In this document: positions 14,858-16,242 of the stretch, piece after piece
Layout of the letters: the number at the start of each line of letters is the position of its first letter
Numbering within the stretch: the stretch's first letter is position 1
Source of the DNA: Acidimicrobiales bacterium
GTDB taxonomy: Bacteria > Actinomycetota > Acidimicrobiia > Acidimicrobiales > GCA-2861595
Length of the DNA stretch: 63,106 nucleotides
Assembly: GCA_036262515.1 (NCBI GenBank)
Contig: DATAIT010000060.1
Span: 1 to 63,106 of the forward strand
Reading direction: 5' to 3'
The notes under the pieces: generated by a model
Databases searched by the model: none
What the model saw: the letters and a program-made list of their open reading frames with translations, nothing else
What the model was told of the DNA's origin: nothing
Program-made: the position numbers and the translations under genes

Positions 14858-15466
14858 GTGCGCCCCTGGCGGATGGTGACCGTCCTCGTCGCAGCCCTCG
14901 GGCTCGTCGCGTCCGCCTGCGGCGCCAAGGGCGACCGTGGTGACGACGTGCAGGCGGGCACCTCGGTCCCCGCGCCACGCGCCCCCGAGACGGCGCCGGC
15001 GGCCGCGCCGGGAGTGCCGTATGCGCCGACTACGACCGCCCCCGGTGTGGAGGTTCCCAAGGCGTTGCGCTTCACCGCCACCGGCGTCGACGGGATGAAG
15101 ATCGTCGGTGCCGACTACGCCGGCAAGGACGTGGCGCTGTGGTTCTGGGCACCCTGGTGAGGACCGTGCAATCGGGCGGCGCCCGGTGTCGCGCAGGTGG
15201 CGCGGCAGTACGAAGGGAAGGTGCAGCTCATCGGCGTGCCCGGCCGCGACAGCGTCGCCGCCATGCGCTCGTTCGTCGACGAGTACGGGCTCGGCTTCGT
15301 GCAGCACGCCGCCGACCCGGACGGCAAGCTGTGGGCCAAGCTCGGCGTGCGGTACCAACCCACGTGGATCTTCGTGGAAGGCACGACCGGCAAGGCCACG
15401 GTGGAGTTCGGCGACTTCGAGGGCGACCTGCTGCGTCAGCAGTTCGACGCCCTGCTCGCCACGTGA
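14858..15466 (+). CDS. thioredoxin-like lipoprotein with in-frame UGA at the active site (probable selenoprotein)
   Basis: One continuous frame of 203 codons from GTG 14858 to the stop at 15466 is broken only by a TGA at 15158-15160 (codon 101). The sequence around it reads FWAPW-(TGA)-GPCNRAAPG. The TGA therefore sits exactly where thioredoxin-fold proteins have the first Cys of WCGPC, with the second Cys at 104. Downstream the fold continues normally (YEGKVQLIGVPG, VRYQPTWIFVEG with the cis-Pro). Residues 6-21 form a lipoprotein signal (VLVAALGLVASAC, Cys21), so the protein should face outside as an extracytoplasmic disulfide/thiol enzyme of the TlpA/DsbE-like type. A hairpin right after the TGA fits a bacterial SECIS. 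The alternative is a Cys TGC-to-TGA nonsense mutation. No Sec machinery lies in this window. Confidence 0.72.
15171..15187 (+). other. candidate bacterial SECIS hairpin
   Basis: Twelve bases after the TGA, CGGGC (15173-15177) pairs with GCCCG (15181-15185) around a GGC loop. A G-U pair and an A-U pair extend the stem to seven base pairs (15171-15187). Bacterial SECIS elements lie inside the coding region close after the UGA, with a G among the first loop bases, and this hairpin meets both conditions. GC-rich sequence forms such hairpins easily, so support is moderate. Confidence 0.5.
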
Positions 15467-15597: not shown

Positions 15598-16242
15598 ATG
15601 TTCGGCAGACACAAGGCGGAGATGGTGGATCCCGGCAGCGCCCTGGCCGGGCGAGCGCAGGCCATGCCGGTGCCCGAGCGCCACTACGTGAAGGGCACGC
15701 CGATCGCCCCGCCCTTCCCCGACGGGCTCGAGCAGGCGGTGTTCGCCATGGGCTGCTTCTGGGGCGCGGAGCGGAAGTTCTGGGAGCTGGACGGGGTGTA
15801 CACCACCGCCGTCGGCTACGCCGGAGGCTTCACGCCCAACCCCACCTACGAGGAGACGTGCAGCGGCCGGACGGGCCACACCGAGGCGGTGCTCGTCGTG
15901 TTCGACCCCGCCCAGGTCGGCTACGAGGTGCTGCTCAAGACGTTCTGGGAGAACCACGACCCGACCCAGGGGATGCGCCAGGGCAACGACGTCGGCTCGC
16001 AGTACCGCTCGGCCATCTACACCACCACCCCCGCCCAGGCCGATGCGGCGGCCATGTCGCAGAAGGCCTACCAGGAGGGCCTCACGGCGCGCGGCTACGG
16101 CTCGATCACCACCGAGATCGAGCCGGCCGGGCCCTTCTTTTACGCCGAGAGCTACCACCAGCAGTACCTGGCCAAGAACCCCGGCGGCTACTGCGGCCTG
16201 GGCGGCACCGGCGTCAGCTGCCCGATAGGGCTCGGCGCGTAG
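15598..16242 (+). CDS. msrA: peptide methionine sulfoxide reductase A
   Basis: 214 residues. MsrA reduces the S-epimer of methionine sulfoxide in proteins and free methionine. The catalytic Cys53 is in the signature [10 protein letters not shown]. Substrate-site motifs follow: [21 protein letters not shown] and GSQYRSAIY. Two C-terminal resolving Cys lie in [11 protein letters not shown], so the enzyme should recycle through thioredoxin. The ATG at 15598 has GGAGG six bases upstream. There is no signal peptide, so it is cytosolic. It follows the thioredoxin-like lipoprotein gene by 131 bases on the same strand. Both are redox genes, but the lipoprotein is predicted to be on the other side of the membrane, so a direct partnership is uncertain. 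Confidence 0.96.

Follow-up and report, generated by a model that had tools for sequence, protein, structure and literature searches.

An in-frame UGA that almost certainly encodes the active-site selenocysteine of a predicted surface-anchored thiol-redox lipoprotein

We found that a stop codon within a gene of the order Acidimicrobiales almost certainly specifies selenocysteine (Sec) in the active site of what is predicted to be a surface-anchored thiol-redox lipoprotein. The gene lies on a 63,106-nucleotide stretch of DNA, the whole of which is referred to here as the window (Table 1). That the gene encodes a selenoprotein in which UGA 15158-15160 is decoded as Sec is the best explanation as a whole, and we put its probability at about 0.93. 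The sequence itself shows the recoded frame, the decoding machinery of the host, the conservation of the codon, the covariation of the SECIS in relatives and the predicted fold; Sec insertion in the cell, which hairpin is the SECIS of the window gene, the location of the protein at the membrane, its redox direction, its partner and its substrates are inferred.

Table 1 Features of the selenoprotein locus and of a second UGA-containing gene in the host genome
Feature	Position	Strand	Description
Selenoprotein gene	14858..15466	+	lipoprotein signal peptide, linker, DsbE/DsbF-like thioredoxin domain; GTG start, TGA stop 15464-15466
Lipoprotein signal peptide (predicted)	14858..14920	+	MRPWRMVTVLVAALGLVASAC, lipobox VASAC, Cys21
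Thioredoxin-fold domain	15050..15463	+	residues 65-202; resolving Cys 104; cis-Pro-type QP 167-168
UGA codon	15158..15160	+	residue 101, almost certainly selenocysteine, in place of the first active-site Cys (WUGPC)
Hairpin 1	15171..15187	+	AUCGGGC-GGC-GCCCGGU, 7 bp, loop GGC starting 17 nt after UGA
Hairpin B (best SECIS candidate)	15187..15207	+	8-bp stem UGUCGCGC/GCGCGGCA, loop AGGUG starting 34 nt after UGA
msrA	15598..16242	+	normal catalytic Cys (GCFWG); downstream neighbour of selenoprotein gene
FdhA-type gene	L144 (contig G000:C88), UGA 1816-1818	minus	one in-frame TGA at FdhA selenocysteine site

Translation of the frame gave 202 residues with a single internal TGA at codon 101. This bore out the claim of the first-pass annotation that one frame is interrupted only once, as well as its claim that the TGA falls precisely where the first active-site Cys belongs (WFWAPW-U-GPC). 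The redox-active Cys of homologues aligns with this in-frame UGA. TGA is also the normal terminator of the gene itself and of 6 of the 10 other window genes checked. Over the 94 codons 3' of the internal TGA, 28 synonymous and 15 nonsynonymous differences separate the window gene from that of its congener, which indicates that the C-terminal half is under selection as a protein.

The product is predicted to carry a signal peptide with a lipobox Cys and to be processed as a lipoprotein, and in 69 of 74 TGA homologues a loose lipobox pattern, a simple one of our own making, precedes the domain. With Cys substituted for the UGA, the protein matched the AhpC-TSA/Redoxin/Thioredoxin families of Pfam; models of ResA, StoA and DsbE matched it weakly. 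The best solved relatives were Mycobacterium tuberculosis DsbF (3ios, E 4e-26) and Mpt53/DsbE (1lu4, E 4e-24). AlphaFold2, run on the family alignment, predicted a confident domain with block pLDDT of 90-98 from residue 61 on, and the model compared well with both structures (TM 0.95 by target and 41% identity for 3ios; TM 0.89 and 36% for 1lu4). The predicted protein therefore has a single thioredoxin fold nearest to 3ios and 1lu4, but it departs from the two-Cys CxxC of DsbE/DsbF in having UxxC, as a homologous Sec variant.

The internal TGA is conserved. Among 59 relatives, three other members of the same family have the gene, one from the same genus (68% identical) and two from other genera (65% and 64%), and each has TGA at this codon. 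The close relatives, which were inspected for truncated genes, had none. We then surveyed 397 genomes of the order at E<=1e-19 and obtained 125 matches in 94 genomes, 112 with the TGA and 13 without an internal stop. At each locus inspected codon by codon, the aligned codon was TGA, TGC or TGT, and those of the 13 stop-free homologues that were inspected had Cys at the site; the relatives thus show either TGA or Cys, as the first-pass annotation had expected of a selenoprotein. The family also reaches into other orders of the class. A scan of named organisms returned one close relative, the MAG 'Actinobacteria bacterium YU_71_112', and otherwise only distant thioredoxin-like matches. Several genomes of the order (G031, G046, G213, G276 and G140) contain at least three TGA-containing paralogues each, indicating that the family has expanded in those genomes.

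The host genome, a draft of 3.41 Mb in 129 contigs that is 97.8% complete, encodes the whole set of Sec-decoding genes for which a search had been proposed: SelA, which scores above the Pfam cut-off, and SelB immediately after it; a tRNA-Sec (selC) with anticodon UCA; and SelD. A further UGA-containing gene of this genome encodes FdhA, a molybdopterin enzyme related to formate dehydrogenases. Its UGA stands in the context NQARI-U-HSSTVPGLGTSFGRG (ARI-U-HSSTVPG) and is followed by a canonical SECIS, GUCCCC-GGUCU-GGGGAC, whose loop lies 18 nt downstream of the codon. This in-frame TGA and its SECIS hairpin make it very likely that the host decodes UGA as Sec elsewhere too. Across the order, SelA was found in 82 of the 85 genomes that carry a TGA homologue (completeness of the other three is 73-83%), whereas it was found in 3 of the 9 genomes that have stop-free homologues only (Fisher p=8e-6). 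Together with the TGA or Cys homologues and the lack of any truncated close relative, this machinery supports the proposal, made from the sequence of the stretch, of a Sec-containing extracytoplasmic thiol-redox lipoprotein.

No gaps are needed to align the sequences 3' of the UGA, which allowed us to count base pairing directly, numbering from the U of the UGA as position 1. Outside the window's clade, 63 of 65 distinct TGA sequences have GGUC at positions 30-33, flanked by a stem at 26-29/34-37, placing the loop 26 nt after the UGA. With the two exceptions (L036 and L037) set aside, GGUC and all four pairs occur in 58 of 63 sequences, against 2.3 expected by synonymous codon resampling. In an alignment of 42 sequences, pairing is seen in 95.2% of cells, and covariation scores 0.559, compared with 0.156 in shuffles (0/500 as high) and with values at or below 0.13 in slid controls. 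Pair 28-35 switches from G-C to A-U or U-A along with both encoded residues (Ala/Ala, Thr/Val, Ser/Glu). Among Cys homologues, GGUC is at this position in only 2 of 21, neither with the full stem. By base pairing and covariation, most relatives clearly have a predicted SECIS, a hairpin shortly 3' of the UGA whose small apical loop contains a G.

The window's own family differs. There, Gly replaces Ala at the site of the relatives' stem (APGVAQV), and the GGUC stem is absent because this codon change breaks it. The hairpin described by the first-pass annotation, 7 bp beginning about 11 nt after the UGA with a loop that starts with G, does exist (hairpin 1), and its inner five pairs are kept in the clade beyond what codon use predicts; we looked for compensatory change in it within the clade and saw none. 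Farther downstream, however, there is a longer and better supported hairpin, hairpin B. It is common to the window's family, the nearest outside sequence (L022), L036 and L037, with a stem at 31-37/43-49 and a loop at 38-42. All five core pairs form in six of these seven sequences and four form in the seventh, whereas none of the 63 other sequences pairs more than three of the five. One pair is compensatory, changing from C-G to A-U in L036 and L037; hairpin B was recognised post hoc, in a small sample of seven sequences, and its covariation is not significant by itself (66/500 shuffles as high). Hairpin B is likely to be the SECIS of the window gene. An Rfam search of the stretch matched no selenocysteine element. 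For the 51 nt that start at the UGA, the folding energy was unremarkable given their composition (z = -0.95), and single-sequence folding was rejected as proof of a SECIS; the case for Sec therefore rests on comparison and not on the fold. The two hairpin placements are mutually exclusive, with the loop 34 nt after the UGA in L018-L022, L036 and L037 and 26 nt after it in all other TGA homologues. This distribution suggests that the SECIS moved during the evolution of one family.

These comparisons bear on three other readings of the TGA. The first is that the gene is a normal thioredoxin-like one with CxxC, altered by nonsense mutation or by sequencing error; a single base change, TGC to TGA, would suffice, and the host genome is a draft. 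We consider this explanation extremely improbable: the identical codon is present in the three family genomes described above, one from a congener and two from other genera, all independently assembled, as well as across many families of the order. A nonsense mutation was rejected on this conservation, a base-call error is ruled out because the same TGA was assembled independently, and continued selection on the C-terminal half at the protein level argues against both. A UGA-decoding frame alone leaves the inserted residue unspecified, and UGA might be decoded as another amino acid, either because the code has changed throughout or through a suppressor tRNA. This reading is very improbable, given a dedicated UGA-reading tRNA-Sec with selA, selB and selD, Cys as the alternative residue in homologues and covarying downstream hairpins; a general code change was rejected on the ordinary TGA stops in the window, the conservation and the Sec machinery. 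The remaining reading is that the gene is an ancestral selenoprotein whose SECIS has decayed in the window's clade, leaving a truncated 100-residue lipoprotein. The loss of the strong GGUC hairpin speaks for it, but throughout the family the protein part encoded 3' of the UGA is conserved and synonymous changes are in excess, and hairpin B, rare elsewhere, is shared by the clade and by L036 and L037, the sole other sequences without the GGUC stem. We regard decay as improbable, although less so than the other two.

For the selenoprotein reading, we propose that SelB, carrying a Sec-tRNA(UCA) made by SelA and SelD, would read the UGA as Sec, aided by an mRNA hairpin a short way 3' of it, most likely hairpin B. 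The product would be an exported lipoprotein anchored at the outward side of the membrane, where its thioredoxin fold would present a U-G-P-C active site. It would most likely exchange disulfides with secreted proteins: Sec101 would attack, Cys104 would resolve the mixed selenenylsulfide, and either VKOR or a CcdA/DsbD-type electron carrier in the membrane would reset the enzyme. A DsbD/CcdA-type membrane protein and VKOR are both encoded in the host genome, on other contigs, and a search beside the selenoprotein gene found that neither adjoins it. In two relatives, a gene for a flavoprotein of the dihydrolipoamide dehydrogenase/mycothione reductase type lies near the selenoprotein gene on the same contig (L128, 7172-8596; L125, 9963-11444), a proximity that may be due to chance.

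The direction of the exchange is less certain, because the genome encodes membrane proteins of both types, DsbD/CcdA and VKOR, with neither adjoining the gene. The protein is most likely an extracytoplasmic disulfide exchanger, with oxidase favoured over reductase at roughly 60:40. A reductive selenoprotein would instead pass electrons to an extracytoplasmic methionine sulfoxide reductase, to cytochrome c maturation or to peroxide removal, and we hold this to be a substantial possibility, somewhat short of an even chance. It is consistent with the weak matches to the ResA, StoA and DsbE models, with the DsbD/CcdA-type protein of the host and with msrA being the downstream neighbour in the genus. 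On the other hand, oxidative folding of hirudin, and no reduction of insulin, is what the nearest proteins of solved structure, Mt-DsbE and Mt-DsbF, carry out (PMC3853704). Synteny of msrA with the selenoprotein gene and glnA is retained only within the genus (L123), and a functional link to msrA was rejected on the ground that the neighbourhood is confined to it; the MsrA of the window has no evident export signal and is probably cytoplasmic.

A subclade of the family has TGA at both active-site Cys codons (L083, L084, L085, with two tandem copies, L086, L087, L088 and L089). These 8 sequences from 7 genomes form one clade with support of 100/99, counting in the mislabelled L086. Their motifs are WUPFU, WUPHU and WUPTU, with the two UGAs three codons apart; a single GGUC hairpin follows the second of them at a distance of 17 nt. 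The encoded UxxU lipoproteins would be putative diselenide proteins, judging from these motifs.

Genes of this kind tend to appear in annotations as truncated or missing, and a widespread extracytoplasmic redox system of the order may go unseen for this reason. According to a 2026 review, aerobic bacteria rarely keep selenoproteins (PMC13188914); beside that statement stands a strong SelA match in 236 of the 397 genomes of the order, whose organisms may or may not be aerobic. The family also supplies natural Sec/Cys pairs of one enzyme, the UxxU subclade and natural variation in SECIS position, which could be used to test what favours Sec over Cys and how far SelB accepts a SECIS at different distances.

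We compared the family with known systems. M. tuberculosis DsbF (Rv1677, 3ios) and DsbE/Mpt53 (Rv2878c, 1lu4) share its thioredoxin domain, WFWxPWxxC active site and secreted location, but the window protein would have Sec for the first active-site Cys, encoded by an in-frame UGA with a candidate SECIS. The apical loop of the Escherichia coli fdhF SECIS is GGUC. The relatives' hairpin and that of the host's own fdhA share the GGUC apical loop with this classical bacterial element; the distance of the loop from the UGA differs, being 18 nt in FdhA, 26 nt in most relatives and 34 nt, with AGGUG, in the window's clade. The ResA-like WAxxUGC selenoproteins (NCBIfam NF041054) are another thioredoxin-like group with a Sec form. 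Their model matched 13 of 42 family members weakly and did not match the window protein at E<=1e-3; their Sec motif is UGC, whereas that of the window protein is WUGPC (UxxC), which places it outside the WAxxUGC group.

Closer in kind are the catalogued UxxC selenoproteins, namely 'Trx-like 1' (COG0526) from the Global Ocean Sampling study and, in a 2026 inventory, 'thiol-disulfide isomerase-like protein' (cd02966) and 'redoxin family protein' (PF08534); between them, two marine surveys of 2005 and 2008 and this inventory cover the three types (PMC1088965, PMC2398784, PMC13188914). These share the superfamily and the Sec position with the window protein. A literature search on selenoproteins in Acidimicrobiia found nothing relevant, and in the literature on the catalogued UxxC selenoproteins we found no account of the order's DsbF-type lipoproteins, the two SECIS placements or the UxxU subclade. 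The impression of the first-pass annotation that such a protein had not been described for this type of actinomycete needs two corrections: the family is no oddity, being widespread in the order and class, and the UxxC TlpA/Trx-like kind is on record. UxxU itself has a precedent in Prx-like selenoproteins (PMC2398784, PMC13188914). We give even odds to the larger proposal that these proteins form a distinct, uncatalogued group of Sec-dependent DsbE/DsbF-type lipoproteins that is a main Sec user in the order, in which the SECIS would have shifted about 8 nt downstream (GGUC to AGGUG) along with amino-acid changes, and in whose UxxU subclade one hairpin would serve two UGAs to yield a cell-surface diselenide. 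The catalogued UxxC classes are broad and come largely from marine reads, and the window's family may overlap with them. It is a real, unannotated selenoprotein family of a known general kind, and the parts most likely to be new are the UxxU subclade and the two SECIS placements within one family.
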